A stretch of DNA of 64,000 nt. Source: Pandoraea fibrosis (GTDB taxonomy: Bacteria > Pseudomonadota > Gammaproteobacteria > Burkholderiales > Burkholderiaceae). Under the pieces are notes generated by a model that worked only from the letters and a program-made list of their open reading frames with translations, was not told where the DNA came from and searched no databases. Location of the stretch: positions 2,232,001 through 2,296,000 of the forward strand of contig NZ_CP047385.1 in assembly GCF_000807775.2 (NCBI RefSeq), read 5' to 3'. Shown here in pieces: positions 32,169-48,110 of this stretch. The stretch's first letter is position 1. Every line of letters begins with the position of its first letter. The position numbers were made by a program, and so were the translations under genes.

Positions 32169-33362
32169 TCAGAAGAACGCCTGGATGCCGGTCTGTGCAC
32201 GGCCGAGAATCAGCGCGTGGATGTCGTGGGTGCCTTCGTAGGTGTTGACCACTTCGAGGTTCACGAGGTGACGCGCGATGCCGAATTCGTCGGAGATGCC
32301 GTTGCCGCCGAGCATGTCGCGCGCGAGACGGGCGACATCCAGTGCCTTGCCGCACGAGTTGCGCTTCATGATCGAGGTGATCTCGACGGCTGCCGTGCCT
32401 TCGTCCTTCATGCGGCCCAGACGCAGGCAGCCTTGCAGGCCGAGGGTGATTTCCGTCTGCATGTCGGCGAGCTTCTTTTGGATCAACTGGTTGGCGGCGA
32501 GCGGGCGCCCGAACTGCTGACGGTCGAGCACGTACTGACGTGCCGTGTGCCAGCAGAATTCGGCGGCACCCAGTGCGCCCCAGGCAATGCCGTAGCGCGC
32601 CGAGTTCAGGCAGGTGAACGGACCCTTCAGGCCCGAGACGCCCGGCATCAGATTGTCTTCCGGTACGAAGACTTGATCCATCACGATCTCACCGGTGATC
32701 GACGCGCGCAGACCGACCTTGCCGTGAATTGCCGGCGCCGACAGACCCTTCCAGCCCTTTTCCAGAATGAAGCCGCGGATCTTCTCGTCGCCATTCTCGT
32801 CGGCGAGCTTGCCCCACACCACGAAGACGTCGGCGATGGGCGAGTTGGTGATCCACATCTTGCTGCCGCTCAACTCATAGCCGCCAGCGACCTTCTTGGC
32901 GCGCGTGGTCATGCCGGCCGGATCGGAGCCGTGGTTCGGTTCGGTCAGACCGAAGCAGCCGATCCACTCGCCGCTGGCCAGCTTCGGCAGGTACTTCTGC
33001 TTTTGCGCTTCGCTGCCGAATTCGAAGATCGGCACCATGACGAGCGACGACTGCACCGACATCATCGAGCGATAGCCCGAGTCCACGCGCTCGACTTCGC
33101 GCGCGATCAGACCGTAGGCGACATAGTTCAGGCCCGGGCCGCCGTATTGCTCGGGAATCGTCGGGCCGAGCAGGCCGATCTCACCCATCTCGCGAAAGAT
33201 GGCGGCGTCGGTGCGCTCATGACGGAATGCTTCGAGCACGCGCGGCGCGAGCTTGTCGTTCGAGTACGCGGCCGCGGCGTCGCGAATCATGCGCTCTTCG
33301 CTCGTGAGCTGTGCGTCGAGCAACAGCGGATCTTCCCAATGAAACTGTGCATTGCCTGCCAT
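32169..33362 (-). CDS. gcdH: Glutaryl-CoA dehydrogenase
   Basis: Converts glutaryl-CoA to crotonyl-CoA and CO2 with FAD, in lysine and tryptophan breakdown. The 397 residues start '[24 protein letters not shown]', typical of GcdH. Other motifs are '[16 protein letters not shown]', '[23 protein letters not shown]', '[15 protein letters not shown]' and the catalytic Glu in '[20 protein letters not shown]'. It is divergent from an IclR regulator with two palindromes between them. Confidence 0.96.
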
Positions 33363-33483
33363 GACCTATCTCCTCCGACGTTCTCGAAAAATATGCCGAC
33401 GCCATCCTCATCGTCCCGTTTGGCACATGTGTGGCATCGCTTGCGACTTGCCACACCGGGAAAGCACTTCGACTTGACGAAAG

Positions 33484-33500
33484 TTCCGCAATGCGGAACA
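33484..33500. promoter_or_regulatory. IclR-type palindrome upstream of gcdH
   Basis: GTTCCGC-AAT-GCGGAAC, perfect 7-bp arms around a 3-nt centre, 122 bp before the gcdH start and 96 bp before the divergent iclR start. The size and TTCCGC/GCGGAA arms suit IclR-family operators. Confidence 0.65.
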
Positions 33501-33520
33501 ATGTTCTGAAATCGAAGTTA

Positions 33521-33536
33521 GTTTAGCACTAAACTT
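33521..33536. promoter_or_regulatory. Second palindrome in the gcdH/iclR divergent region
   Basis: AGTTTAG-CA-CTAAACT, perfect 7-bp arms, 60 bp before the iclR start and 20 bp from the first palindrome. Its sequence differs from that site, so it may bind another factor or be a promoter element. Confidence 0.5.
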
Positions 33537-33595
33537 TTTTCTCAGGCAACGGCCAGTGTGTGCACTGGCCGAACTCATTTGAAGCGGAGTGCGCG

Positions 33596-34444
33596 ATGGT
33601 TGTGGTCAAAACGTCCCTGTCAGCCTTTGCCGGTGCTCCGGCGCACGGTGTGCCGCCGTCGCATGACGAGCGCAAGTTCGTGACCGCGCTGGCGCGCGGT
33701 CTCGAACTGTTGCGCGCTTTCGGTCCCGACGATGTCCTGCTGGGCAACCGCGACTTCGCGGCCCGCACCGGATTGCCCAAGGCGACCGTCAGTCGCCTCG
33801 CCTACACGCTCACGGAGTTGGGGTATCTGCGTTATGACGCCGAGCTTGGCAAATACGCCCTAGATGCAGGCGTGCTGGCCCTGGGATACGCGTTCCTGAG
33901 CGGTACCGACATGCTGACGCTCGCGCGTCCGCACATGCGGGCGCTGGCGAAGGAAATGGGATGTTCCATTTCGCTGGGTTGCCGAGAGGGCATCGACATG
34001 ATGTATCTCGAAACCATCCGCAGCGATTCGGCACACCTCACGCTGGGACTGACGGCGGGCTCACGCCTGTCGATGCTGACAAGTTCGATGGGGCGCGTCT
34101 ACCTCGCGGCCATGACGCCGACTGAGCGCGAGACGATGCTCGCCGATCTTCGCGATGCCTACGACGCGAATCCGGCGGCACTGCGCAACGTGGGCTGGGA
34201 TGTGTTGCAGTCCGGCGTCGACAAAGGGATCGAGTCGTATAAGCGCGAGGGCTGCTGCTACTCGTTTCGCGAGTGGCATGAAGGCGTGAATGCGGTGGCC
34301 GTGCCGTTGCGTGACGTGCGGCAGAACCGTTGGCTGGCGATCAGTTGCAGCGGGCCGTCTTCGTCGATTCCGGATGCGGTTTTCCGTGAAGAGATCGGCC
34401 CGAGATTGAAGCAGCTCGCGGCGCGGCTTACCGGGCAGGTGTAG
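33596..34444 (+). CDS. IclR-family transcriptional regulator (next to gcdH)
   Basis: A 282-residue regulator. The N-terminal winged helix is 'FVTALARGLELLRAFGPDDVLLGNRDFAARTGLPKATVSRLAYTLTELGYL' (motif only), and the C-terminal IclR effector domain includes 'ALAKEMGCSISLGCREGIDMMYLETI' and 'CCYSFREWHEGVNAVAVPLRD'. Start 33596 has CGGAG 8 nt upstream and is preferred to the GTG at 33560. The divergent layout with gcdH and a palindrome between them suggest it controls gcdH. Confidence 0.92.
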   Translation: MVVVKTSLSAFAGAPAHGVPPSHDERKFVTALARGLELLRAFGPDDVLLGNRDFAARTGLPKATVSRLAYTLTELGYLRYDAELGKYALDAGVLALGYAFLSGTDMLTLARPHMRALAKEMGCSISLGCREGIDMMYLETIRSDSAHLTLGLTAGSRLSMLTSSMGRVYLAAMTPTERETMLADLRDAYDANPAALRNVGWDVLQSGVDKGIESYKREGCCYSFREWHEGVNAVAVPLRDVRQNRWLAISCSGPSSSIPDAVFREEIGPRLKQLAARLTGQV

Positions 34445-34748: not shown

Positions 34749-35714
34749 TCACAGCAACGTTCGCACGTGCCACAACTCGGGGAACAGCACCACATCGAGC
34801 ATCTTGCGAAGGTAAGGCGCGCCATTGGTGCCACCGGTGCCTTGCTTGAAGCCGATGATGCGCTCGACGGTTGTCACGTGGCGGAAGCGCCACTGCCGGA
34901 AGGCGTCTTCGAGATCGACCAATTCCTCAGCCATCTCGTACAACTCCCAGTGCTGCGACGGATTGCGATACACCTCAAGCCACGCCGCCTCGACGGTCTC
35001 GTCGTGAGGCGTCGGCTGTGTCCAGTCGCGCTCCAGCCGGGCTGGCGCAATCGCGAAGCCGCGACGAGCCAGCAGGCGCACCACTTCATCGTAAAACGAC
35101 GGCGCGTTGAGCGCCGCTTCCACCTGCTGGAATAGATCCGGGCGATGCGAATGCGGCTTCAACATCGCCGCATTCTTGTTGCCCAGCATGAACTCCAGAA
35201 TGCGGTACTGATACGACTGGAAGCCCGACGAGCTACCCAGTGACGGACGCATCGACGAATACTCCGACGGCGTCATCGTCGCCAGCACGCTCCACGCCTG
35301 CACCAGTTGTTCAAGAATGCGCGACACGCGTGCGAGCATCTTGAAGGCGGGTGGCAGTGCGTCGTTGTGAACCGCGGCACGCGCTGCCTGCAGTTCGTAC
35401 AACGCCAACTTCATCCACAACTCACTTGTCTGATGCTGAATGATGAACAGCATCTCGTTGTGATCGGTCGAGCGCGGATGTTGCGCATTCAAAATCGGAT
35501 CGAGCGACAGATAATCGCCGTAGCTCATGCTCTTGGAGAAGTCGAGCTGAGCGTCGTGCCATTGGGTCGCTTCGGCCGGTGCACTTTGCGCGGCGTTCGT
35601 GTTGCCCGCCGCGTTCTCGCCACTCTGATGCCCGAACGGGCACCCGCCCTGTGCGGGCGTGGCGTCCGTCGGCGTGTCGCGAGGGTCGTTTGCGGAAGAG
35701 GGAGTCTTGCTCAT
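34749..35714 (-). CDS. kynA: Tryptophan 2,3-dioxygenase
   Basis: A haem enzyme that opens the indole ring of tryptophan to N-formylkynurenine. The 321 residues have '[17 protein letters not shown]', '[24 protein letters not shown]' with the haem-pocket His, '[27 protein letters not shown]' and '[28 protein letters not shown]'. The first 45 residues are a Pro/Thr-rich extension that includes 'GGCPFGHQ'. Last gene of kynBUA; 16 bp after kynU. Confidence 0.97.
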
Positions 35715-35730
35715 ACTGACGATTCCTCTC

Positions 35731-36984
35731 TCAGGTCACCGTGCCGCGACGATGAAATTCGGGCTTGTCCCACGCGCCCGTGGCCAGCACCTCGCGCAGA
35801 ATTTCGACGGAATCCCAGACATCGGCAAAGCTCGTGTACAGCGGCGTCATACCGAAGCGCATGATGCGCGGCTCGCGATAGTCACCGATGACACCTCGTG
35901 CAATCAGCGCCTGAATCACGGCAAACCCCTCCGGATGCTCGAAGCTCACCTGCGAACCTCGCGCGGCATGATCGCGCGGCGTCACCAGCGTGAGCGGGAA
36001 TTCGGCGCAACGCTCTTCGACCAGCTTGATGAACAGATCCGTCAGCGCCAGCGACTTGCTGCGCAGGGCTTCCATCGACGTCTGCGCGAAGATGTCCAGA
36101 CCGCATTGCACAAGCGAGAGCGAGACGATCGGTTGCGTGCCGCACAGGTAGCGTCCGATGCCATTGTCCGGCGTGTAGTCCGGATGCATGGCGAACGGCG
36201 TGCGATGGCCCCACCAGCCCGACAACGGCTGCCAGAACTCGTCCTGATGTGACTTGTTGACCCACACGAAGGCCGGTGCACCCGGGCCGCCGTTCAGATA
36301 CTTATATGTGCAGCCCACCGCGTAGTCGGCCTTGGCACCGTTCAGATCGACGGGCACGGCGCCCGCCGAATGGCAAAGGTCCCACACCGCCAGTGCTCCC
36401 GCGGCATGAATCTCTGCCGTGCGTGCGGCCATGTCGTACATCGCGCCGCTGCGGTAGTTCACGTGCGTGAGCAGCACCACAGCGACATCGTCGCGCAGCG
36501 CGTTCGGCAGGTCTTCCGGCGCATCGATCAGACGCAACGAGTAGCCGTCGTCGAGCAAGCGCGTGAGGCCCTGCACGATGTAGAGGTCGGTCGGGAAGTT
36601 GCTGCGCTCGGAGACGATCACCTTGCGTTGCGGTGCTCGCGTGCGCTGCATGTCGAGGGCGGCAGCCATCACCTTGAAGAGGTTGCTCGACGTGGTGTCG
36701 GTCACCACGACTTCGCCTTGACCGGCACCGATGATCGGAGCGAGGGCGTCGCCGAGCTTGCGCGGCAGCGCAAACCAGTCGGCGTCGTTCCAGCTACGGA
36801 TGAGATCCCGGCCCCATTCGGCGGTAATCACTTCCTGAGCGCGCTTGGCCGACGCCAGCGGGCGGGCACCCAGCGAGTTTCCGTCGAGATAGATCACGTC
36901 GGGCGGCAGATCGAATTGTGCGCGCAGCGGGGCGAGCGGATCGGCCGCATCGAGGGCCAGGCAATCGTTGCGAGAAGACGTCAT
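35731..36984 (-). CDS. kynU: Kynureninase
   Basis: A PLP enzyme that cuts kynurenine to anthranilate and alanine. The 417 residues include '[13 protein letters not shown]', '[14 protein letters not shown]', '[12 protein letters not shown]', '[17 protein letters not shown]', and the PLP-lysine in '[16 protein letters not shown]'. It is the middle gene of kynBUA, with 16 bp to kynA and about 69 bp from kynB. Confidence 0.97.
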
Positions 36985-37053
36985 GGTTTGCGTTTTATGA
37001 GTGAATGCAATGAAAAAAATCGTTTGCCGTGAGGCCGACGCGGGCTGTCCCGT

Positions 37054-37731
37054 TCAGAGGGAGCGCAGCACGGCGCGGACCGGGCTTGCGTCGAGCCGCA
37101 TGAACTTCAGCGGCAACGCAATGAGTTCGTAATCGGCCGGGAGAATCGCGTCGAGCACCAGCCCTTCGAGAATGGCCATGCGATGCGCGCGAATGCGGTG
37201 GTGCGCGTCCATCGTCTTGCTTTCCTGCGGATCGAGCGACGGCGTGTCGATGCCCACCAGCTTCACGCCATGCGACGCGAGCAGATCGATAGTCTCTGGC
37301 GCTACCGCGCAAAACGCGCTATCCCAACGAGCCAACGGCGCCCGCTCATACGTGCGCAACAGCACACGCGGCGGCACATCGCTCAGGTGCGGCGCCACCA
37401 TCTCGGGGGTGACGACCGGAGAGGCGCCAAGACAATGAATCACCCGGCACGGTCCCAGATACGTATCCAGCGAGACCTCGCCAATGAAGGCGCCATCGTC
37501 GTCGTAATGACGCGGGGCATCCGCATGAGCCCCCGTGTGAGGCGACAACGTGATGCGCCCGACATTGACCGGACAACCCGGCCCGATCTGCCAAACCGCT
37601 TCTTCCGAGAACGGTGTGTCACCTGGCCAGACGGGCGTGTTGCTGGAGAGTGGGGCGCTGATATCCCAAACGCGGCGCTCGTTGCGCGCGTCGGCTGGGT
37701 GATGGCTGGGTGCGGTCATGGACGTGCGCAT
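37054..37731 (-). CDS. kynB: Kynurenine formamidase (arylformamidase)
   Basis: A metal-dependent cyclase-family enzyme that turns N-formylkynurenine into kynurenine and formate. The 225 residues carry '[19 protein letters not shown]' and the metal motif '[18 protein letters not shown]'. '[25 protein letters not shown]' is also typical. The start is 37731 or 37719; neither has a clear ribosome-binding site. First gene of kynBUA; two inverted repeats lie 105-165 bp upstream. Confidence 0.96.
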
Positions 37732-37945: not shown

Positions 37946-38404
37946 CTAACGAGGGAGTTGGGTTCCCTGCGCCATCTCGTCGATCAGGCGGCGCAACGTG
38001 TCTTTGAGGAGGGTGGATTGTTCGGCACCGAAGCGCGCGAGCACCCCGGCTTCGTGCCGGCGTGCGCTGGCGAGCAACGGCGCCACGCGTTCGCGGCCCG
38101 CGTCGGTGAGCGAGACAAGCGACTGGCGGCGATCCGTTGTGCTCTCGCCGCGCACGACGTCGCCGGTCGCTTCCAGCCGGTCGACAACCTTGGTGAGCGT
38201 CGGCTGCTTGGCAAGCACGATGTCGGCGAGTTGATTGATGGTGCGCGCCCTGCCATCGGAAAGCGTGGCAAGGACTCGCCACTCAGACACACCGAGGCCC
38301 GCTGCTGCCACTTCGCGATGAAACTCATCGGAGACCAGCGTGCTCGCACGAGCGAGCAGATACGCCAGATAGTCGTCGACGAACGGCGCTCCGGCGGCTG
38401 ACAT
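37946..38404 (-). CDS. MarR-family regulator of the flavin reductase / NicX-like unit
   Basis: A 152-residue MarR regulator: '[68 protein letters not shown]' (motif summary) shows the winged helix and the beta-wing '[10 protein letters not shown]'. It starts 6 bp after the flavin reductase stop and so is in its operon. NicR and PicR, which control nicotinate and picolinate breakdown, are also MarR proteins. The palindrome at 38973-38986 is its likely site. Confidence 0.92.
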
Positions 38405-38410
38405 GGGACT

Positions 38411-38929
38411 TTAACCGAGAGATTGCGGCTTGTGGAAGCCGCCGGCGTGGAAGATCAGCGGCATGCGATCGGCAACGTTCGCATGAACGCCGCAACGCTC
38501 GACCTCGCCGACGAAGATGACGTGGTCGCCTTCGTCATAACGGCTGCGGTTATGACACTCAAACCAGGCCAGCGCCCCGTCCAGCACCGGGGTGCCCGAC
38601 GCCGACAACGTATAAGGTACGCCCGCAAAACGGTCACCCTTCACCGTGGCGAATCGCTTGCAGATGTCAAGCTGATCGGCCGCCAGTACATTCACGGCAT
38701 AGTGGGAGTTTTCGCGGAAGACGGGCATGCTGCCCGCGCGCGTGGCGAGACTCCACAAGATGAGCGGCGGCGTGAGCGACACCGAGTTGAACGAACTGGC
38801 GGTAATACCGATGAGCGAACCGTCGTCGGCGCGCGTGGTGATGACTGTCACCCCGGTCGCAAACTGACCGAGCGCATGACGAAAGGCTGCGCTGTCGAAA
38901 TCTGGCACTGCGGCGCGTTTGGCGTTCAC
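38411..38929 (-). CDS. Flavin reductase (NAD(P)H:FMN/FAD oxidoreductase, HpaC type)
   Basis: A 172-residue flavin reductase. Family motifs are 'FRHALGQFATGVTVITTR', 'GITASSFNSVSLTPPLILWSL', 'YAVNVLAADQ', and 'DHVIFVGEVERC'. Such enzymes supply reduced flavin to a partner monooxygenase. The divergent operon holds an acyl-CoA-dehydrogenase-fold flavoprotein without the normal catalytic Glu, which is the most likely partner. First gene of a two-gene unit with marR. Confidence 0.94.
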   Translation of the reverse strand: MNAKRAAVPDFDSAAFRHALGQFATGVTVITTRADDGSLIGITASSFNSVSLTPPLILWSLATRAGSMPVFRENSHYAVNVLAADQLDICKRFATVKGDRFAGVPYTLSASGTPVLDGALAWFECHNRSRYDEGDHVIFVGEVERCGVHANVADRMPLIFHAGGFHKPQSLG

Positions 38930-38972
38930 TGTCCCTGCACTCCCGTCCGGCTAATTTGATCGGGTTGATTTG

Positions 38973-38986
38973 TATGAATATTCATA
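38973..38986. promoter_or_regulatory. Perfect palindrome between the divergent catabolic arms
   Basis: TATGAATATTCATA, a perfect 14-bp palindrome in an AT-rich patch 43 bp before the flavin reductase start and 106 bp before the NicX-like gene. A -10-like TATACT (38985-38990) overlaps its right end. Size and place fit a MarR dimer site controlling both arms. Confidence 0.68.
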
Positions 38987-39092
38987 TACTATGGCACGAA
39001 CAACAGATCGACAAGACGCATGACGGCCAGCAGCGTGCCACGGGGCGAAGCAGCCCCCGGCGGGCGAGAGGGTCAGACGCTCAGGAGACGAT

Positions 39093-40142
39093 ATGCTGAT
39101 CGAGCGAATCGAGCATAAGTGGATCGAGGTATTTGCCGAGACCTTGCGGCGCTGCGACATACGACCCGGTGATGTGGTGGCGATTGTAGCCGAAACGCAA
39201 TCCCGGCCTGTCAACGTGGAATTAGCACAGCTTGCGGCGGAATCGCTTGGCGCCAAGCCTTTCCGGCTGATTGTGCCGAGTCCGCGCGTGAGTGCCCCGG
39301 TGCCGGTGCGCTCGACGGGCGCCAGCGACGCACTGGGGCAACTGGCCCCGGTCGTGGCGGCGCTACGGGCCGCAACGCTGGTCGTCGACTGCACCGTAGA
39401 AGGGTTGCTGCATGCGCCCGAACTGCCCGACATTCTGGGCGGCGGCGCGCGCGTGTTGATGGTCTCCAACGAACATCCCGAAATTCTGGAACGCTGCGCA
39501 ACCGACCCGGCGCTCGAGCCGAAGGTGCGTGCGGCGATCAAGCGTTTGCGCGGTTCGGCACAAATGCATGTCACCTCCGCCGCTGGCACCGATCTGCGCA
39601 TCGGGCTGCGTGACGCGCGCGTGGGCGGTGTCTGGGGTTGGTGCGCCAAACCGGGACAGGTGGCCCACTGGCCGGGCGGTCTGGCGTTGGCGTTCCCCGC
39701 TGCGCACAGTGTGAACGGCCGACTCGTGCTCGCGCCGGGGGACATCAATCTGACGTTCAAACAATACCTGCGCGATCGTATCGAACTCACGGTCGAGGAC
39801 GACTATGTCGTCGCTATCGACGGTGAAGGCGTCGACGTCGATCTCATGCGCGAGTACTTCGCGGCGTGGGGCGATCGCGAAGCCTACGCCGTCTCGCACG
39901 TTGGCTTCGGTCTGAACCCGCGTGCGCGTTGGGATGCACTCGCCTGCTACGACAAGCGCGATTGCAACGGTACGGAGCAGCGCGCGTTCGCGGGCAATTT
40001 CCTGTATTCGACGGGCGCGAACGAAGTGGCGGGACGTCACACGCTCGGTCACTTCGACTTGCCATTGCGCCGTTGCACCATCGCGCTCGATGGCGATGTG
40101 GTCGTGCGCGATGGTCAACTGCAAGGCGAGTTCGCATCATGA
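39093..40142 (+). CDS. NicX-like 2,5-dihydroxypyridine dioxygenase family protein
   Basis: A 349-residue protein of the M29-peptidase-like fold that includes NicX, the Fe(II) enzyme that opens 2,5-dihydroxypyridine. NicX is about 350 residues and, as I recall, binds iron with His265, His318 and Asp320. Here H269 ('SHVGFGLNPRARW'), H320 and D322 ('GRHTLGHFDLP') keep the same spacing. AGGAG lies 5 nt before the start. The next gene overlaps by ATGA. Nicotinate genes nicC, nicF and nicE are not nearby, so the substrate may differ. An aminopeptidase role is less likely given the context. Confidence 0.82.
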   Translation: MLIERIEHKWIEVFAETLRRCDIRPGDVVAIVAETQSRPVNVELAQLAAESLGAKPFRLIVPSPRVSAPVPVRSTGASDALGQLAPVVAALRAATLVVDCTVEGLLHAPELPDILGGGARVLMVSNEHPEILERCATDPALEPKVRAAIKRLRGSAQMHVTSAAGTDLRIGLRDARVGGVWGWCAKPGQVAHWPGGLALAFPAAHSVNGRLVLAPGDINLTFKQYLRDRIELTVEDDYVVAIDGEGVDVDLMREYFAAWGDREAYAVSHVGFGLNPRARWDALACYDKRDCNGTEQRAFAGNFLYSTGANEVAGRHTLGHFDLPLRRCTIALDGDVVVRDGQLQGEFAS

Positions 40143-40945
40143 CGCTTCCCGTACCCGCCTGTCGCATGGCGGGCGACGGCCCGCTCACGCTGGTGCTGCT
40201 GCACGGCATTGGTGGCAACCAGCATGTCTGGCCCGCGCAATTCGAGACTTTCGTGACGGCGGGCTATCGCGTGGTGGCCTGGGACATGCCCGGTTACGGC
40301 GAGAGCGCCATGCCTGCCGAGCCGACCATGGCGTCGCTGGCCGACAGTCTGCGGGCGCTGCTCGACGCATTGGGGCCATCGCGCTCGTCGCGATTCGTGC
40401 TCGTCGGTCACAGCATGGGTGGCATGGTCGCGCAGGAGCTGATGGCGCGCGGCGAGCCGTTCACGCGCGATATCGCGGCGCTCGTGTTGTGCGGCACGTC
40501 CCCCGCATTCGGCAAGCCGGATGGCGACTTTCAACGTGAATTCGTGCGTCAGCGCACTGCGCCGTTAGACGCCGGTAAAACGCTGCGCGAGATGGCGCAA
40601 GCGATCGTGCCGGGCATGCTCGGTGAGCCGGATGCCGCCACGCGTGCGAGTGCGCAGGCGCTGGCCGTCGACGCGATGGGCGCGCTCACGCCCGACGCAT
40701 ACCGCGCCGCGCTGCAAGCGCTCGTGGGCTTCGAGCAACGTGCTGCGCTTGCACGTCTCGCCGTGCCGGTGTTGCTGATCGCCGGCGAGCACGACACCAA
40801 TGCGCCACCGAGAGTCATGGCGCGCATGGCCGAGTCCATTGCACAGGCGCGCTATGTCTGCCTGCCCGGCGCCGGACACCTCATGAATCTGACGCACCCG
40901 GCGGCCTTCGACGCCGAGGTGCGCGCTTTCCTCGCAACACTCTAG
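40139..40945 (+). CDS. Alpha/beta hydrolase (NicD/ring-cleavage product hydrolase-like)
   Basis: A 268-residue hydrolase. 'LVLLHGIGGNQHVW' forms the oxyanion loop; the catalytic triad is S92 in 'LVGHSMGGM', D219 in 'LLIAGEHDTNAPP', and H247 in 'LPGAGHLMNLTHP'. Its start overlaps the stop of the NicX-like gene (ATGA). In nicotinate breakdown the matching enzyme NicD removes formate from N-formylmaleamate, so a similar role after ring opening fits. Specificity cannot be read from sequence. Confidence 0.88.
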   Translation: MTLPVPACRMAGDGPLTLVLLHGIGGNQHVWPAQFETFVTAGYRVVAWDMPGYGESAMPAEPTMASLADSLRALLDALGPSRSSRFVLVGHSMGGMVAQELMARGEPFTRDIAALVLCGTSPAFGKPDGDFQREFVRQRTAPLDAGKTLREMAQAIVPGMLGEPDAATRASAQALAVDAMGALTPDAYRAALQALVGFEQRAALARLAVPVLLIAGEHDTNAPPRVMARMAESIAQARYVCLPGAGHLMNLTHPAAFDAEVRAFLATL

Positions 40946-40954
40946 GAGACTACC

Positions 40955-42199
40955 GTGGCCTATCAGCCCCCTTCGATCGTCGGCGAGCATTACCCGTTCA
41001 CGGACAAGCAACGGCGTTTGCTGGCGCTGGCCGAACAGGTGGGGCGCGAGTCGCTCGCGCCACGCGCCGCCCGCTGGGATCGTGAAGCGTCGTTCCCGTT
41101 CGAGAACTACGACGACATGCGCGCCGCCGGCTTGCTGAAGTTGTGCATTCCCGAATCGGACGGTGGCCTGGGCGCCGATTTCGCCACGTACATGATGGTC
41201 TCCGCCGAGCTGGGCCGCCACTGCGGTGCTACGGCGCTCACATTCAATATGCATACGTGCTCGATGATGTGGACGGGCATTCTTGCCGACGATCTCGACA
41301 TGACTCCCGAGCAACGCACTGAGCATGCGGGCTATCGAAAGCATCACTTCTCGCGCGTCATTCAGGACGGCGCGATCTACGCGCAGCCGTTCTCCGAGGG
41401 CAGTGCGGCGGCGGCGGGCAAGGCACCGTTCGGTACGACCGCGACGAAGGTGGAGGGGGGCTGGAAGATCAACGGTCGCAAGATCTTTGCATCGCTCTCG
41501 GGCGCGGCGAACTACTACGGCGTGCTGTGCACCGAAGACAAGCCCGAGTTGTCGATGAAGGACACGTTCTACATCGCCGTGCCGGGCGACGCGCCGGGCG
41601 TGACCGTCACCGGCGACTGGGACCCGCTGGGCATGCGCGGTACGGTGTCGCGCACGTTGCTCTTCAAAGACGTGTTCGTTCCCGACGAACTGCAATTGAT
41701 GCCGCGTGGCGTCTACTATCAGGCCGCCAGCCGCTGGCCACACATGTTCATGACGCTCGCCCCGACGTATATGGGGATCGCGCAGGCCGCCTACGATTTC
41801 ACGGTGCGCTATCTGCGTGGCGAAGCCGACGGCATGGGCGCACCGGTCAAGCGTCGTATGTATCCGACCAAGCAGATTGCCGTTGCACAAATGCACATCA
41901 TGCTTGAGCAAACGCGCGCGCTGTTTTTGCGCGCCTTGCAGGACGGTCGTGCAGATCCAGGCAAGGAGGCGCGTCTGCGGGCGTATGCAGCGCAGTACAC
42001 GATCATGGAGAATGCGAACGAGTTGTGCCGTCTCGCCATCCGCACCTGCGGCGGGCAGTCGATGCTCAAGACGTTGCCGCTCGAACGTATGTATCGCGAT
42101 TCGCGTTGCGGCGCGCTGATGCTGCCGTGGACTGCGGAATTGTGCCTCGACCGTATTGGCCGCGAGGCGCTCTACGAACCGGGCGAGCGCGACGAGTAG
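40955..42199 (+). CDS. Acyl-CoA-dehydrogenase-fold flavoprotein, canonical catalytic Glu replaced
   Basis: A 414-residue protein with the full acyl-CoA dehydrogenase fold: 'GLLKLCIPESDGGLGAD', 'AQPFSEGSAAAAGKAPFGTTATKVEGGW', 'GWKINGRKIFASLSGAANYY', 'WDPLGMRGTVSRTLLFKDVFVP' and 'CGGQSMLKTLPLERMYRDSRCGALMLPWTAE'. At the place of the usual 'YEGT' with its catalytic Glu it has 'LPWT' (390-393). That is seen in fold members that act as flavin-dependent monooxygenases, though some true dehydrogenases carry the base elsewhere. GTG start with TAGGAG 7 nt upstream. Confidence 0.85.
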   Translation: MAYQPPSIVGEHYPFTDKQRRLLALAEQVGRESLAPRAARWDREASFPFENYDDMRAAGLLKLCIPESDGGLGADFATYMMVSAELGRHCGATALTFNMHTCSMMWTGILADDLDMTPEQRTEHAGYRKHHFSRVIQDGAIYAQPFSEGSAAAAGKAPFGTTATKVEGGWKINGRKIFASLSGAANYYGVLCTEDKPELSMKDTFYIAVPGDAPGVTVTGDWDPLGMRGTVSRTLLFKDVFVPDELQLMPRGVYYQAASRWPHMFMTLAPTYMGIAQAAYDFTVRYLRGEADGMGAPVKRRMYPTKQIAVAQMHIMLEQTRALFLRALQDGRADPGKEARLRAYAAQYTIMENANELCRLAIRTCGGQSMLKTLPLERMYRDSRCGALMLPWTAELCLDRIGREALYEPGERDE

Positions 42200-42283
42200 A
42201 AACAAGGTAAGCGACGTGAGTGGCACGCGGGCCCCGGTTCGCTGGACTCATGCGTTGTCGTCTCTCTTGTCACGGAGAACAAG

Positions 42284-43834
42284 TTGACGCCTTTTGTAGA
42301 AGCGCTTGCCCGTCATGCACGCGCCACGCCTGAGCGGCTGGCATTGCGTTGTGGCATTGGCGATGAATCGGAGCGGACCGACTACGCTGCGTTGTGGCGA
42401 CGCGTCGAGCGGGTGGGGGGGCATTTGCGCAGCACCTGGCGCATCGCACCGGGCGATCGCGTCGCCTGTCTCGGTCTGAATGACGAGTTGCAACTGGCGC
42501 TGCTGTTTGCCTGCGCCCGTGCCGGCGCCATTTTCCTGCCGCTCAATTTCCGTCTAGCCGTTCCCGAACTGGCCGCGATCGTGCGCCATGCGGGCGTGCG
42601 TGTGCTGTGGTTCGACGCTGTGCATCGCGACGCTGCGCGTCAGATCCGCGACTCGCTCGAACAGCACGCCATCACCGACCTGCCGCCGCCCGCCATTGCA
42701 CCGATCGAAGGACTGATCGCGGTGCCGTCGACAAAACCCGTCGACTATCCCGATGTCGCTGCCGATGCGCCTGTACTGCTCGCCTATACGTCCGGCACGA
42801 CGGGCGAACCCAAGGGCGCGCTGCATACGCAGGCCGGCTTGCTCGCCAATGCCGAAGCCAGTTGGTGGGCGCACGACATGCGTGCCGACGACCACATCCT
42901 GTCGACACTGCCGATGTTTCATGTCGGCGGCCTGTGTATTCAAACGCTGCCTGCGCTGTTGTGCGGGGCGAGCGTCACGCTGCATCCCCGTTTCGATCCG
43001 GCAGCGTGGCTGGCGGATGTCGCGAAGCACCGTCCGACGCTCTCTCTGATGGTGCCCGCGACGATGCGAGCGGTGCAACTGCATCCGGCGTGGTCGACGA
43101 CTGATCTGTCGTCGCTGCGCGGCGTGATGGCCGGCTCCAGCGTTGTGCCGATGTCCGCCATCGATGCATTCCACGCGCGTGGCATTCCGCTCGGGCAGGT
43201 GTATGGCGCGACGGAAACCGGTCCGGTATCGATTGCGCTGCGCTTTGGCGAAGCGAAAGCGTATCCCGGTGCGGTGGGCCGTGCGTGCCCGGGCGTGGAA
43301 GTGCGGCTGACGGATGTGAGCGGGCAGGACGTCGCGGCCGGTGAGGTCGGCGAGATTCTCGTGCGTGCACCGAATGTGATGCGCGAGTACTGGCGTGCGC
43401 CCGGACACGCCTCGTTCGAGGGCGGCTGGTTCCACTCCGGCGATCTGGCGCGCTTGCGTGAGGATGGGTGTTTCGAAGTCGTGGGCCGCAGCAAGGACAT
43501 GATCATCTCGGGGGGCGAGAACATCTACCCGGCGGAAATCGAGAATGCGCTGGTCGACTGCCCGGGGGTACTGGAGGCCGCTGTCGTTGGCGTGCCGGAC
43601 GAGCGATGGGGCGAGGTGCCGGTGGCGGTCATCGTACCGACGCCCTCGGCCGGTGCGACGTCTCAGACCGTGCTCGACTTCCTTGGCGAGCGCATCGCTC
43701 GCTTCAAATTGCCGCGACGCGTTGTGATTCTCGATGCGCTTCCCAAAAGCGCGCTTGGGAAAGTGCAAAAACCGATTCTCATTGGCTGGTTATCTGCGAC
43801 GCAGGAATTGCAAACGTCGACTGCAAGTCGGTAA
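42284..43834 (+). CDS. AMP-forming acyl-CoA ligase
   Basis: A 516-residue ANL-superfamily ligase. 'LLAYTSGTTGEPKGALHTQAGL' is the P-loop motif A3, 'GQVYGATETGP' is A5, 'WFHSGDLARLREDGCFEVVGRSKDMIISGGENIYPAEIE' (motifs A7-A8) follows, and the catalytic Lys is in 'LPKSALGKVQKPIL'. It activates a carboxylic acid to its CoA ester. The TTG start is chosen because CGGAG lies 6 nt upstream and the N-terminus matches the family. It ends the plus-strand arm, before a terminator. Confidence 0.92.
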   Translation: MTPFVEALARHARATPERLALRCGIGDESERTDYAALWRRVERVGGHLRSTWRIAPGDRVACLGLNDELQLALLFACARAGAIFLPLNFRLAVPELAAIVRHAGVRVLWFDAVHRDAARQIRDSLEQHAITDLPPPAIAPIEGLIAVPSTKPVDYPDVAADAPVLLAYTSGTTGEPKGALHTQAGLLANAEASWWAHDMRADDHILSTLPMFHVGGLCIQTLPALLCGASVTLHPRFDPAAWLADVAKHRPTLSLMVPATMRAVQLHPAWSTTDLSSLRGVMAGSSVVPMSAIDAFHARGIPLGQVYGATETGPVSIALRFGEAKAYPGAVGRACPGVEVRLTDVSGQDVAAGEVGEILVRAPNVMREYWRAPGHASFEGGWFHSGDLARLREDGCFEVVGRSKDMIISGGENIYPAEIENALVDCPGVLEAAVVGVPDERWGEVPVAVIVPTPSAGATSQTVLDFLGERIARFKLPRRVVILDALPKSALGKVQKPILIGWLSATQELQTSTASR

Positions 43835-43860: not shown

Positions 43861-43904
43861 AAAAACGCCGAAGTCCTTGCTGTACAAGGGCTTCGGCGTT
43901 TTTT
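43861..43904 (+). terminator. Rho-independent terminator of the catabolic operon
   Basis: AAAACGCCGAAG-T-CCTTG / CAAGG-G-CTTCGGCGTTTT stem with one mismatch, 5-nt loop, and seven T. Confidence 0.93.
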
Positions 43905-44077
43905 TATGCTGACGTTCCGCGATGCATAAGGGAAAATCCCTATGCGTAACCGCTCGATTTGTTACCATCCGGTGAGAATCTCATTTTTTACTTTGGGAAT
44001 TGCATCGCAAGATAGCGCCCATGTCGTCATCGGCGGCTAGCCCGCTGATTTTTTTGCTTTCTTTTGTTTTCAAGACG

Positions 44078-44824
44078 ATGGACACCACCGAAGCTCATTC
44101 GGTCTCTGAACGCGTTCTGCAAGTCCTTGTGACTGTGGCGCGTCATGGACGACCGATCGCGGCACGCGAGATCGCCGCGCAAACGAGCCTGCCGCTCTCC
44201 ACGGTTTACCGCCACCTCGTGCCGCTCAAGAAGTGGGGCCTGGTGCAGGAGCACGCCCATGAGGCGCTCTATGAACCGGGTCCGGTCGGCGTGCAATTGG
44301 CGTGGGGTTTCGACCACAACTCGCATCTTGTCACCCAGGCACGTGAGGAAATCGACGCCCTCGTGCAGCGCACCGGCGAGACTGTCGGTCTGCTTGTGGC
44401 CGCCAACGGCCAGGTCGTCTGCCTCGACATGCACGAGAGCGAGCAATCGCTGCGTTGCTCCTTTGCCAAGGGGCGTGCGCATCCGCTGGTGCATGGCGCG
44501 TCTGCCAAGGCACTGCTCTCGTTCCTGCCCCAGGCGACCCGCGAAAGCCTGATCGGCCGCCAATTGGCGGGCCAGCCGGTCGCGCAGGAGCGTCTCGTCG
44601 CGCAGGTCGAAGAGATTCGCAAGCAGCGATACGCGGTGTCCGAAAGCGAAGTGGATTTCGGCGTCTGGGGCGTGTCGGCCCCTGTGTTTGCCGCCAAGGA
44701 GCGTCTGGAGGGCACCATCACGCTGATGGCGCCGGCCGTGCGTGTGGCTCAGCGCCACGAAGAGCTGATCCGCCTCACGGTGGCAGCAGCCGAGCGTATT
44801 TCGAATCGATTGCAGTACTTTTAA
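44078..44824 (+). CDS. IclR-family regulator of the amino acid transporter operon
   Basis: A 248-residue IclR regulator. The winged helix is 'SVSERVLQVLVTVARHGRPIAAREIAAQTSLPLSTVYRHLVPLKKWGLV' (motif summary); the effector domain has 'REEIDALVQRTGETVGLLVAANGQVVCLDMHES' and 'VDFGVWGVSAPVF'. The start is uncertain: the frame is open to a TTG at 44000 and an ATG at 44021, but that stretch is hydrophobic and unlike IclR leaders, so 44078 is preferred. Its stop is 39 bp before the binding-protein gene, so the genes are probably one operon. Confidence 0.88.
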   Translation: MDTTEAHSVSERVLQVLVTVARHGRPIAAREIAAQTSLPLSTVYRHLVPLKKWGLVQEHAHEALYEPGPVGVQLAWGFDHNSHLVTQAREEIDALVQRTGETVGLLVAANGQVVCLDMHESEQSLRCSFAKGRAHPLVHGASAKALLSFLPQATRESLIGRQLAGQPVAQERLVAQVEEIRKQRYAVSESEVDFGVWGVSAPVFAAKERLEGTITLMAPAVRVAQRHEELIRLTVAAAERISNRLQYF

Positions 44825-44863
44825 CCGGTTTTAGCCGACCAAGACTACACGAAGGAGTACCAG

Positions 44864-45601
44864 ATGAAATTGCGTCACATCCTGTTCACGATGGCGCTGG
44901 CCGTCACCTGCTCGAGCAAAGTCTTCGCTGCCGACGACGTGTTGCGTGTTGCCACCGACGCGACCTTCCCGCCGTTCGAATATGTGGACAACGGCAAGCG
45001 CACCGGCTTCGACGTCGAAATGATCGAAGCGCTGGGCAAGGCCATGGGCAAGAAGGTCGAGTGGACGGATATCGATTTCAAGGGGCTGATCCCGGCCGTG
45101 CTTTCCAAACGCGTCGACGTGGCTGCTTCGGCGATCTACATCACCGACGAGCGCCTGAAGGTGGTGAACTTCACGCATCCCTACTACACCGGCGGTCTGG
45201 CGATTCTGGTGAAGGCAGATAACACGAGCATCAAGGAACCGGCCGACCTGACCGGCAAGAAGGTGTCGGTGCAGGTGGGAACGAAGTCGGTGCAATTCCT
45301 GAAGGAAAGCTATCCGAAGGTCGAGCGCGTGGAAGTCGAGAAGAACGATCAGATGTTCGAACTCGTGAAGATCGGTCGTGCCGACGCTGCCGTGACCGGC
45401 AAGCCGGCAGCGCTGCTGTACGCCAAGGCCAACCCGGGCGTGAAGGTGCTCGACAAGACGCTGACCGTTGAGCGTTATGGCTTCGCCGTGCGCAAGGGCG
45501 ACACCGAACTGACCAACGAGATGAACAAGGCGCTGGAGAAGGTTCGTGCAGACGGCACCTACGCTGCGCTGGTCAGCAAGTACTTCGGTACCGCGAAGTA
45601 A
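44864..45601 (+). CDS. Polar amino acid ABC transporter substrate-binding protein
   Basis: A 245-residue periplasmic binding protein of cluster 3 (SBP_bac_3). The signal peptide ends near 'KVFA-AD'. 'LRVATDATFPPFEYVDNGKRTGFDVEMIEAL' and 'VAASAIYITDERLKVVNFTHPYYTGGLAI' are the family marks for amino acids. Ligand is likely a polar or basic amino acid; the downstream hutG suggests histidine or a related compound. AGGAG lies 8 nt before the start. Confidence 0.93.
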   Translation: MKLRHILFTMALAVTCSSKVFAADDVLRVATDATFPPFEYVDNGKRTGFDVEMIEALGKAMGKKVEWTDIDFKGLIPAVLSKRVDVAASAIYITDERLKVVNFTHPYYTGGLAILVKADNTSIKEPADLTGKKVSVQVGTKSVQFLKESYPKVERVEVEKNDQMFELVKIGRADAAVTGKPAALLYAKANPGVKVLDKTLTVERYGFAVRKGDTELTNEMNKALEKVRADGTYAALVSKYFGTAK

Positions 45602-45623
45602 GCACGTCGCAAACGTAATACCG

Positions 45624-45665
45624 GGCGGGTTTGCCGTCACCCCGAATGGGATGACGGCGCCCGCC
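45624..45665 (+). other. Long hairpin between the binding-protein and permease genes
   Basis: GGCGGG ... GCCGTCA ... TGACGGC ... CCCGCC: outer and inner paired arms in a 42-bp element, no T-tract. Placed 22 bp after the binding-protein stop. Probably stabilises the binding-protein message. Confidence 0.65.
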
Positions 45666-45702
45666 GATGCAATAAAGCAGTAGAGCAACTGACGGAGTAC
45701 GC

Positions 45703-46371
45703 ATGGAACTCGATTTTTCGCCGGTGTGGGCAAACTGGCAGGACCTCGCGCGTGGCGCGCTCGTTACCGTCGAGGTAACTGCCTGCGCACTGGCGCTGGG
45801 CTGCGTGTTGGGTTTGCTGGTCGGCATGGGCCGCCTGAACCCGGCACATCGCATTCGCTACGGCATCTGTACCGCCTATGTCACGTTCATTCGTGGCACG
45901 CCGCTGCTGGTGCAGCTCTTTATCCTGTTCTTCGGACTGCCTCAGTTCAACATTCTGCTGCCGGCCTTCATGTGCGGTGTGCTGGGTCTGGGCATCTATA
46001 GCGGTGCCTATGTCTCGGAGATCGTGCGCGGTGCCATCCAGTCGATCGAACGCGGTCAGATGGAAGCCGCCCGCTCACTCGGCATGCCGTATGGTCAGGC
46101 CATGCGCTCGGTGATTCTGCCGCAGGCCGTTGTGCGCATGATTCCGCCGCTGGGCAACGAATTCATTGCGCTGATCAAGAACTCGGCCCTCGTGTCGCTG
46201 CTCACGATTCATGACGTGATGCACGAAGGTCAGAAAATCATCAGCGTGTCGTATCGCTCGCTGGAAGTGTATCTGGCGATTGCGTTTGTTTATCTGATTC
46301 TGACCGGTGTCACCACGCTGCTCCTGCAGCGCGCCGAGAAGTCCCTGCGTGCCGGAGGTGCCGTGCAATGA
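45703..46371 (+). CDS. Polar amino acid ABC transporter permease
   Basis: A 222-residue HisM/GlnP-type permease. '[26 protein letters not shown]' opens the fold, '[23 protein letters not shown]' is the classic family segment, and the EAA loop is '[47 protein letters not shown]'. About five helices. It overlaps the ATPase gene by 4 bp (ATGA). One permease gene suggests a homodimer. Confidence 0.95.
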
Positions 46372-47144
46372 GCGAAGTGAAAAAGGAGATCGGCGCCCCG
46401 ATCCTGAAGATCGAGGGCCTGGGCAAGGCCTACGGCAGTCATCAGGTGCTCAAGGGCATCGACTTCGAAGTCGATGCGCGTCAGGTTGTCGTGGTCATCG
46501 GCCCGAGCGGTTCGGGCAAGAGCACGTTCCTGCGTTGCTGCAACGGGCTGGAAACGGCGGAGCAGGGCACCATCGAAATCGTGGGCAAGAAGCTCGTCGA
46601 TCACGGCAAGATGATGGGCGAGAACGCGCTCAATCATCTGCGTACCGAAGTGGGCATGGTGTTCCAGTCGTTTAATCTGTTCCCGCATCTGAGCGTGCTC
46701 GATAACGTCACGCTCGCACCGCGCAAGCTGCGCGGCATGAAGAGCGCCGACGCCGAGAAGCTCGCTCGCGAATTGCTGGCGAAGGTGGGACTGGCGGCGA
46801 AGGCCGACGTCTATCCGGGCACGCTGTCGGGCGGTCAGAAGCAGCGTGTGGCGATTGCCCGCGCACTGGCCATGCAACCGCAAGTCATGTTGTTCGACGA
46901 GCCGACCTCGGCACTCGATCCGGAACTCGTGGGGGAAGTGCTTCAGGTGATGAAGGCGCTCGCAAACGACGGCATGACAATGCTGGTGGTCACGCACGAG
47001 ATGGGATTCGCCCGCGAAGTGGCCGATGTCGTGGTCGTGATGGATCAGGGGCGAATCATCGAAGCGGGCGCGCCGGAGCAGATTTTCACTGCGCCGCGTG
47101 AAGCGCGCACGCGAGAATTCCTGCAAGCGGTCATCGCACGGTAA
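46368..47144 (+). CDS. Polar amino acid ABC transporter ATP-binding protein
   Basis: A 258-residue ATPase. Walker A '[18 protein letters not shown]', Q-loop '[16 protein letters not shown]', signature '[19 protein letters not shown]', Walker B '[16 protein letters not shown]' and H-loop '[13 protein letters not shown]' are all present and typical of GlnQ/HisP. It overlaps the permease stop and is followed by hutG after 18 bp. Confidence 0.96.
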
Positions 47145-47162
47145 GGCAAGGCAGGCAAACGT

Positions 47163-48110
47163 ATGACAATTGATCGAACGGTCTGGCAAGGCCGTGTGGA
47201 TACCGGCGAAACCGGCCATACCCTGCGTCTGCATCAGGTGCTGCGCGATTACGATGCGTCGCAGGCGGCGGGCGGCGCAGTCGTGCTGGGCTTTTGCAGC
47301 GACGAGGGTGTGCGCCGCAATCATGGGCGTCAGGGCGCGGTCGCTGGGCCGGACATGCTGCGTCGCGCGCTCGCGAGCCTGCCGGTGAAGGGCACGCCGG
47401 TCGTGTTCGATGGCGGCAATATTGTGTGCGCCGACGACCGGCTCGAAGCGGCGCAAGCCGCGCTCGGCCACCGCGTGGCCGAGGTGCTGGCCGCCGGTGC
47501 GCTGCCGGTCGTGCTGGGTGGTGGGCATGAGATTGCCTATGGCACCTTCCTGGGCGTTGCCGAGCATTTCGGCGACCGTCTGCGCGACGAGCCGATCCTG
47601 ATCCTCAATTTCGACGCGCACTTCGACCTGCGTGCACAACCGACGGCCAGCTCGGGTACGCCGTTCTGGCAGATTTCGCAGTTGCTCGCGGGCCGTCAGG
47701 CGCCTTTCCATTACGCCTGTCTTGGTGTGAGCCGCTACAGCAATACCGATGCCCTTTTCGAGCGTGCGGAATCGCTGAACGTGGATTACTGGCTCGACGA
47801 CACGATGCTCGCGCATCGTTTGCCGGAAATGTGCGAGCGGCTCGAGAAGAAGCTTGCACAAGTGAGTCACATCTATCTGACCATCGACATGGACGTGCTC
47901 CCAGGCGAGAAGGCGCCGGGCGTGTCGGCACCGGCGGCGCATGGCGTGGCTCTGGAAGTTGTCGAAGCGCTCATCGGCGTGGTTCGCCGCTCCGGCAAGT
48001 TACGTGTCGCGGATATCGCCGAGTACAACCCGACGTATGACCGCGACGGTCTGACCGCGCGAGTCGGCGCTCGTCTTCTGCATCCGCTCATCACGCAGTT
48101 GAAAGGCTGA
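47163..48110 (+). CDS. hutG: Formimidoylglutamase
   Basis: A ureohydrolase that cuts N-formimino-L-glutamate to glutamate and formamide, the last step of one histidine route. The 315 residues have the binuclear Mn site: 'VVLGGGHEIAYG', 'NFDAHFDLRAQP', and 'TIDMDVLPGEKAPGVSAP'. 'RRNHGRQGAVAGPDMLRRAL' is typical of HutG. It is co-transcribed with an amino acid importer rather than with hutHUI, none of which are in the window. Confidence 0.93.
   Translation: MTIDRTVWQGRVDTGETGHTLRLHQVLRDYDASQAAGGAVVLGFCSDEGVRRNHGRQGAVAGPDMLRRALASLPVKGTPVVFDGGNIVCADDRLEAAQAALGHRVAEVLAAGALPVVLGGGHEIAYGTFLGVAEHFGDRLRDEPILILNFDAHFDLRAQPTASSGTPFWQISQLLAGRQAPFHYACLGVSRYSNTDALFERAESLNVDYWLDDTMLAHRLPEMCERLEKKLAQVSHIYLTIDMDVLPGEKAPGVSAPAAHGVALEVVEALIGVVRRSGKLRVADIAEYNPTYDRDGLTARVGARLLHPLITQLKG

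Follow-up and report, generated by a model that had tools for sequence, protein, structure and literature searches.

A conserved gene unit around a NicX relative in Pandoraea fibrosis, a candidate ring-cleavage module for aminobenzoates

Which ring is opened by a NicX-like dioxygenase that is encoded together with a coenzyme A (CoA) ligase and a flavin-dependent oxygenase? The question is raised by a gene unit at positions 37946-43834 of a 64,000-nucleotide stretch of the Pandoraea fibrosis genome (contig NZ_CP047385.1, positions 2,232,001 to 2,296,000, here referred to as the window). The unit consists of two divergent transcripts, one encoding a flavin reductase and a MarR-family regulator and the other a NicX-like dioxygenase, an alpha/beta hydrolase, a flavoprotein of the acyl-CoA dehydrogenase (ACAD) fold and an AMP-forming ligase. 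A sequence-only reading had described this operon pair, its six genes and its closing terminator, all of which were confirmed at the positions first noted (Table 1), and had proposed a catabolic unit for an aromatic or N-heteroaromatic acid other than nicotinate, with anthranilate as a candidate. The unit is genuine and conserved as a catabolic module, and at its centre an enzyme family already known appears in a variant setting. We tentatively read it, at somewhat less than an even chance, as an aerobic module sufficient in itself to cleave the ring of an aminobenzoate, anthranilate being the likeliest one. This acid would be CoA-activated, hydroxylated para to the amine and ring-opened by the NicX relative. 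The aminobenzoate reading is favoured over the pyridine reading.

The window protein has the homology and fold of NicX and is the sole NicX homologue in the source genome (one contig, 5.59 Mb) at E 0.001. Key residues were assessed in a clade alignment of 96 rows, 77 of them not Pandoraea, with rows containing stops or below 85% coverage excluded. All four iron ligands of NicX (H265, S302, H318 and D320) are present in the window protein as H269, S306, H320 and D322; S302, H318 and D320 are conserved in 96 rows and H265 in 95. The histidines contacting 2,5-dihydroxypyridine are also kept, H105 in 96/96 rows (window H107) and H189 in 95/96 (window H192). The exceptions are Asn at H265 in a metagenome-assembled genome (MAG, locus L031; L and G numbers denote loci and genomes) and Ser at H189 in L121. 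However, the Glu177 position is occupied by Val in 88 rows, Thr in 5 and Asn in 3 (69, 5 and 3 when Pandoraea rows are left out, n=77) and never by Glu, the window having V180, and the Glu183 position by Lys in 88, Arg in 6, Asn in 1 and Thr in 1 (window K186). In NicX, Glu177 contacts pyridine N1 and O1, and the E177A variant retains 2.7% activity, as given in part of PMC7910607. With Glu177 lost in 96/96 rows, 2,5-dihydroxypyridine is therefore an unlikely substrate, judging from the active-site residues. The N-heteroaromatic half of the earlier proposal is not supported, while the aromatic half, in the form of an aminobenzoate, is favoured, and a substrate other than that of nicotinate breakdown is supported. 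The altered active site likewise argues that both database names given to clade proteins, ‘peptidase M29’ and ‘2,5-dihydroxypyridine 5,6-dioxygenase’, are misleading. Four proteins of a second paralogue type have kept Glu177 and carry Phe at 105. In an IQ-TREE phylogeny of 33 hand-picked rows, in which the run warned of long branches, the unit's clade was separate from NicX at 100/100 support. The nicX copy at L121 (genome G142) is divergent, with Asn at both 177 and 183 in addition to the Ser at H189; the unit ligase was not found in this genome at E 1e-90, and the function of this copy has possibly changed or been lost.

The flavoprotein has lost the catalytic glutamate of the acyl-CoA dehydrogenases. 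In the alignment column set by the window's glutaryl-CoA-dehydrogenase-like protein and by an ACAD from a 2-aminobenzoyl-CoA (abm) cluster, this base is replaced by Pro in 88/90 rows and by gaps in 2, as expected of a monooxygenase. The ACAD fold without the base, combined with a partner reductase gene, places the protein with two-component group D flavin monooxygenases, and we propose from these residues that it is the monooxygenase component of such a system. Its top two PDB sequence matches are 5z8t (flavin-containing monooxygenase) and 5gj7 (putative acyl-CoA dehydrogenase), and dehydrogenases and monooxygenases tie in a fold search. The flavin reductase scored 175.8 bits against the p-hydroxyphenylacetate (p-HPA) hydroxylase reductase model NF045919 and did not reach its cut-off of 340 bits. 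The earlier description of a CoA ligase, a two-component flavin monooxygenase and a NicX-type ring opener acting as one catabolic unit is thus supported.

The sequence-only reading had suggested looking in other genomes for the six-gene set and for swapped or fused parts, and both were found. Among the window's genome and 100 relatives, NicX-like matches at E 0.001 occur in 37/101, a count that includes the second paralogue type (roughly 38-42% identical). Scanning named genomes yielded 438 relatives, and gene content was counted in the best 80 of these 438 loci: the flavoprotein and the hydrolase were each present in 79, MarR in 73, the ligase in 69 and the flavin reductase in 66, with nicX and all five partners together in 57 of the best 80, where some contigs are short. 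At L083 there is no space for the hydrolase between nicX and the flavoprotein gene. The gene set recurs outside Pandoraea, including in genomes of Cupriavidus and Limnohabitans strains, and L115-L126, which share the phylum, probably come from Alphaproteobacteria.

Genes for making or degrading anthranilate are frequent neighbours of the unit. Among loci flanked on each side by 5 kb or more (16/80 had less on a side and were dropped), kynU is a neighbour in 17/17 Pandoraea and 9/9 Cupriavidus-group loci, one member of the latter group being named only Burkholderiaceae bacterium. A further 38 well-flanked loci include 24 beside abm genes and 3 beside both kyn and abm. Among stretches taken from more distant genomes of this phylum, L115, L116, L125 and L126 again show the linkage, and none was seen in the 18-20 kb fetched for L117-L120 and L122-L124. 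The kyn and abm linkage supports anthranilate as a candidate substrate. The source genome also has a separate abm-type cluster (hydroxylase, SDR, hydratase, ACAD, ligase and Rid) with an anthranilate-type ligase; the labels for its ligase, SDR, hydratase (ECH) and ACAD were assigned by homology or motif. The genome's best copy of this hydroxylase (C1:2567448-2569775) lies about 270 kb beyond the window, and no fused 2-aminobenzoyl-CoA monooxygenase/reductase is found among the six genes of the unit. The Pandoraea hydroxylase matches the NCBIfam model for salicylyl-CoA 5-hydroxylase/oxidoreductase (1438 bits, cut-off 1078), and is called 2-aminobenzoyl-CoA monooxygenase/reductase here because it sits with a ligase that is nearest, among solved structures, to anthranilate-CoA ligase.

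Co-occurrence was examined in a sample of 398 genomes, in which a unit nicX was taken as at least 390 bits (scores show a gap from 398 to 245 bits) and an abm-type hydroxylase as E 1e-150 or better, both thresholds being set after looking at the scores. Four genomes with only weak nicX matches (G106, G131, G453 and G482, of which G453 has the hydroxylase) were placed neither with the unit genomes nor with those carrying the paralogue. The unit nicX was present in 19/398 genomes, and the hydroxylase in 19/19 of these compared to 71/398 overall (nominal hypergeometric p 6.5e-16 by genome, 3.1e-9 by genus). Kynureninase was found in 17/19 unit genomes compared to 109/398 at E 1e-60, 107 of them over the model cut-off (nominally 1.1e-8 by genome, 6.7e-4 by genus). 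The unit is missing from 52/71 hydroxylase genomes, so that in this sample its distribution is nested within that of the abm-type genomes.

A further indication of the substrate comes from loci in which the ligase is exchanged. The best PDB match of the unit ligase is feruloyl-CoA synthetase 8wev (E 1.6e-96). Eight loci (L122-L126, L131 from Ensifer, L132 from Aminobacter and L133 from Shinella) carry a glutamine-synthetase-like (GS-like) gene, and no ligase more than 40% identical to that of the unit was found in them, L133 having a 32% match 8 kb off. In a search of 14 genomes (leaving out G210, G257, G424, G451 and G470), the unit ligase was not found at E 1e-90 in 5/5 GS-like genomes and was present in 8/9 others (not G142), in some away from nicX (G452, G427 and G382). 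The NicX-like protein of all eight loci has Thr-Pro at 177-178, and a class-I amidotransferase gene stands alongside in 2/8 (L125 and L126). GS-like enzymes that glutamylate aromatic amines are known, namely AtdA1 and NpaA1, according to part of PMC11335346. The exchange of an acid-activating enzyme for one usually acting on an amine therefore suggests that the substrate ring bears both amino and carboxyl groups. A cupin resembling gentisate 1,2-dioxygenase is encoded near the unit in L132 (Aminobacter plasmid pAA02) and L123 (13168-14325), scoring 305 and 309 bits, below the 442 cut-off; the best PDB match of the L132 cupin is a gentisate dioxygenase (E 5.9e-168). At L132:6263-9245 the cupin is accompanied by a gene of the fumarylacetoacetate-hydrolase family and by a nitrilase, for which plant NIT4 is the best relative of solved structure. 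At three GS-like loci (L122:11939-13225, L123:6861-8150 and L125:6246-8249) the alpha/beta hydrolase has an N-terminal Polyketide_cyc2 domain, and its open frame in L125 continues into a TetR regulator.

In the pathway we propose, the ligase would make the CoA ester of anthranilate, the HpaC-like reductase would supply reduced flavin, and the ACAD-fold protein would hydroxylate para to the amino group to give 5-hydroxyanthraniloyl-CoA. The NicX-family Fe(II) enzyme would then cleave C5-C6, the alpha/beta hydrolase would strip the new formyl group as formate, and the remaining six-carbon 3-oxo (or enamine) dicarboxyl-CoA would enter beta-oxidation. A geometric argument can be made for such an intermediate: with the 2-NH2 and 5-OH groups in the O2 and O5 places of dihydroxypyridine, the thioester carbon would lie where N1 was, beside the lost Glu177, and cleavage at C5-C6 would leave the formyl on the thioester-bearing carbon, from which a NicD-like hydrolase could remove it as formate. 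MarR may repress both transcripts at a shared palindrome until an aromatic acid binds, and the route would run beside the abm pathway, possibly under ample oxygen or a short supply of NADH.

Several observations weigh against this proposal. The main trouble, which is unexplained, is redundancy with abm. Anthranilate already has a ligase and a hydroxylase there, the abm ligase being present in 18/18 genomes examined (in two only in part), so that a second route would be redundant, and the abm-type cluster speaks against the unit as the cell's only anthranilate route. Moreover, the unit ligase is not of the anthranilate type. Its match to anthranilate-CoA ligase 4wv3 is far lower (E 2e-43) than that to 8wev, whereas 4wv3 is the nearest solved relative of the abm ligase of the same genome (E 3.7e-82). 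At 11/38 well-flanked loci outside Pandoraea and Cupriavidus neither kyn nor abm genes are neighbours. The hydroxylase also occurs in 8/15 genomes with only the paralogue, there 32-43% identical (Fisher 0.0012 compared to unit genomes), so that part of the co-occurrence may come from genome size and lifestyle, and the p-values are too small because the sampled genomes and aligned rows are mutually related. No assays of any enzyme of the clade were found, and the model name of the abm-type hydroxylase is also compatible with salicylate chemistry.

Alternatively, the unit may be an accessory to abm that salvages a shunt product and no parallel route. Aromatic 5-hydroxyanthraniloyl-CoA leaking from the 2-aminobenzoyl-CoA hydroxylase when NADH is short would be hydrolysed by a thioesterase, and the resulting 5-hydroxyanthranilate re-activated by the unit ligase or the GS-like enzyme and opened by the NicX relative. 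This explanation, which we consider rather unlikely, is favoured by the restriction of the unit to abm-type-hydroxylase genomes (19/19 in the phylum sample), by a ligase different from that for anthranilate, and by the gentisate-dioxygenase-like gene adjoining two GS-like loci. The Pandoraea abm cluster has a possible YbgC/FadM-like thioesterase gene (32 bits, under the 69-bit cut-off). A CoA ester in anthranilate-grown Arthrobacter was presumed to be hydroxyanthraniloyl-CoA in part of PMC3534580, which also cites that 5-hydroxyanthraniloyl-CoA forms when NADH is limiting; TdaE is a known flavoenzyme that salvages a CoA shunt product, as a portion of PMC8283759 describes. Salvage explains the nesting but not the monooxygenase, which is present in 79 of the best 80 loci and would have no clear role, and 52/71 hydroxylase genomes do without the unit. 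The distinct ligase could also reflect a different derivative of an aromatic amino acid as the true substrate, such as 3-hydroxyanthranilate, 4-aminobenzoate, 5-aminosalicylate or an N-acylanthranilate, and the proteins beside two loci match gentisate and 5-aminosalicylate dioxygenase models under their cut-offs; as no specific positive evidence points to any single one of these, we regard this as unlikely. A salicylate-type route seems quite unlikely. Salicyl-CoA or another hydroxybenzoyl-CoA, made by the ligase, would be converted by the flavoprotein to gentisyl-CoA (2,5-dihydroxybenzoyl-CoA), which could mimic 2,5-dihydroxypyridine with the C1-thioester in place of N1, and be opened by the NicX relative. 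The co-occurring hydroxylase exceeds the salicylyl-CoA 5-hydroxylase cut-off in L065 and Pandoraea and the two loci with gentisate-dioxygenase-like neighbours fit such a route, whereas the kyn linkage and the replacement of the ligase by a GS-like gene, known relatives of which act on amines, do not. Opening of a hydroxypyridine made from picolinate or a quinoline or pyridine carboxylate is very improbable despite the NicX family membership, the iron site, H105 and H189, given a site without the glutamate that binds pyridine N1 and O1 (part of PMC7910607), a linkage to anthranilate genes, and no nic or pic gene recognised among the identified neighbours, in which no search was aimed at such genes.

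Table 1. Positions of the unit's features and of the adjacent kyn genes in the window.
Feature	Position	Strand	Basis or remark
kynA, kynU, kynB (tryptophan to anthranilate)	34749..37731	-	co-directional with flavin reductase and MarR genes
MarR-family regulator, 152 aa	37946..38404	-	PF12802 E 6.9e-10, over cut-off
NAD(P)H flavin reductase, HpaC/C1 type, 172 aa, GTG start	38411..38929	-	PF01613 E 7.6e-42
Palindrome TATGAATATTCATA, probable MarR operator	38973..38986	.	between divergent transcripts
NicX-family non-haem Fe(II) dioxygenase, 349 aa	39093..40142	+	7cn3 E 2.9e-56; site mapping; model
Alpha/beta hydrolase, 268 aa; proposed NicD-like deformylase	40139..40945	+	PF12697 E 3.6e-30 (scored with 40133 as start)
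ACAD-fold flavoprotein, 414 aa, GTG start; proposed monooxygenase component	40955..42199	+	dehydrogenase base replaced (P391)
AMP-forming acyl-CoA ligase, 516 aa, TTG start as listed	42284..43834	+	PF00501 E 1.3e-79
Intrinsic terminator, 19-pair stem, loop CUGUA	43861..43903	+	minimum free energy -33.1 kcal/mol, z -6.35

Control of the unit by MarR via the unique palindrome, a putative operator, is plausible. The palindrome has 1 match in the window compared to 0 in 100 shuffles, and its 12-base core occurs at a single place in the whole genome. An exact core, ATGAATATTCAT or ATGAAATTTCAT, is present in 47/72 gaps between the flavin reductase and nicX genes (17/18 in Pandoraea and 30/54 in others), the remaining 25/72 having no exact copy of either. 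The top NCBIfam model for the regulator is HpaR (58 bits, under its cut-off of 121). At L118:8383-9381 (-) flavin reductase and MarR form one open frame of 333 aa, covering NF045919 positions 3-307 of 309 at 190 bits, under the cut-off, which may point to substrate sensing by the MarR partner on behalf of the reductase. One frame at L122:15241-16413 (+) joins a flavin reductase domain to a LysR substrate-binding domain after it, and the Aminobacter gene in the same place (L132:15701-16879, +) is annotated as a LysR substrate-binding domain-containing protein.

Motif positions in the alpha/beta hydrolase point to S92, D219 and H247 as candidates for the catalytic triad; its best PDB match is esterase 4uhh, and 3-oxoadipate enol-lactonase 2xua is also among the matches. 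Family scans named kynB (TIGR03035, 322 bits, cut-off 223) and kynU (above the TIGR01814 cut-off), and the name kynA rests on the earlier reading and gene position. A glutaryl-CoA-dehydrogenase-like gene (32169-33362, so named by homology or motif, with no family scan behind the name) and an IclR regulator occupy 32169-34444; this pair recurs by kyn and the unit in Cupriavidus, and the dehydrogenase-like gene, possibly a downstream step of abm, is also found in L113, L125 and L126 with no kyn seen nearby. After the unit (44000-48110) follow an IclR regulator, an amino-acid-type ABC transporter and formimidoylglutamase (hutG, 300 bits, cut-off 229), a block shared by L032-L047 (L048 ends before hutG) and not found after the unit in Cupriavidus loci or the Pandoraea MAG L073. 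Genes resembling a Phd/YefM antitoxin and a zeta toxin separate the abm-type hydroxylase from the unit at L031:5491-7943.

In the open-licence literature, no title or abstract describing the cluster was found; subscription papers could describe it, such as the Cupriavidus sp. SHE study of Qu et al. 2017, which is cited for a 2-aminobenzoyl-CoA cluster in part of PMC6221969. According to a passage of that review, in 2018 the gene behind the gentisate branch of anthranilate metabolism was still to be revealed, and part of PMC4539516 gives this branch as proceeding via 5-hydroxyanthranilate. The unit is a concrete and testable candidate for the genes of this branch. It may well be, although we would not quite expect it, that the unit represents an undescribed aerobic ring cleavage of anthranilate or its 5-hydroxy derivative, in which an Fe(II) enzyme of the NicX fold cleaves a carbocyclic p-aminophenol ring activated by CoA. 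Such a pathway would be nested in genomes that run abm, with the ligase replaced by gamma-glutamylation of the amine in some lineages. If so, the unit would provide the genes still missing for the breakdown of 5-hydroxyanthranilate, extend NicX-type cleavage from pyridines to carbocyclic rings, and show two activation chemistries, CoA and possibly glutamyl, feeding one ring opener.

Compared to known systems, the unit combines familiar parts in a different arrangement. With NicX of P. putida KT2440 (7cn3) the dioxygenase shares the fold, the four iron ligands, H105 and H189, and an alpha/beta hydrolase gene follows it, as the NicD gene does in the nic cluster. However, it is 35% identical in superposition, with E177 replaced by V, E183 by K and E308 by V, and belongs to a separate clade, and the unit adds a CoA ligase and a flavin monooxygenase. 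The abm pathway of Azoarcus evansii, whose genes are often the next-door cluster, is likewise a CoA-dependent aerobic anthranilate breakdown, as part of PMC4539516 describes. There, a single monooxygenase/reductase also reduces the ring before beta-oxidation, whereas the unit encodes a two-component oxygenase of its own together with an iron dioxygenase, and both systems are present in the same genomes. The p-HPA 3-hydroxylase C1/C2 resembles the unit in its HpaC-like reductase with a MarR-like partner and its ACAD-fold oxygenase. The C1 model has reductase and MarR-like partner in one frame, a layout matched by L118, whereas in the window they are separate genes with scores under the curated cut-offs, and the operon carries a CoA ligase and ring opener in addition. 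Finally, the GS-like enzyme of the variant loci may be one that activates an aromatic amine, as in gamma-glutamylation of aniline and 1-naphthylamine by AtdA1 and NpaA1. In those systems a Rieske dioxygenase comes next, whereas the variant loci have a flavin oxygenase and a NicX relative.

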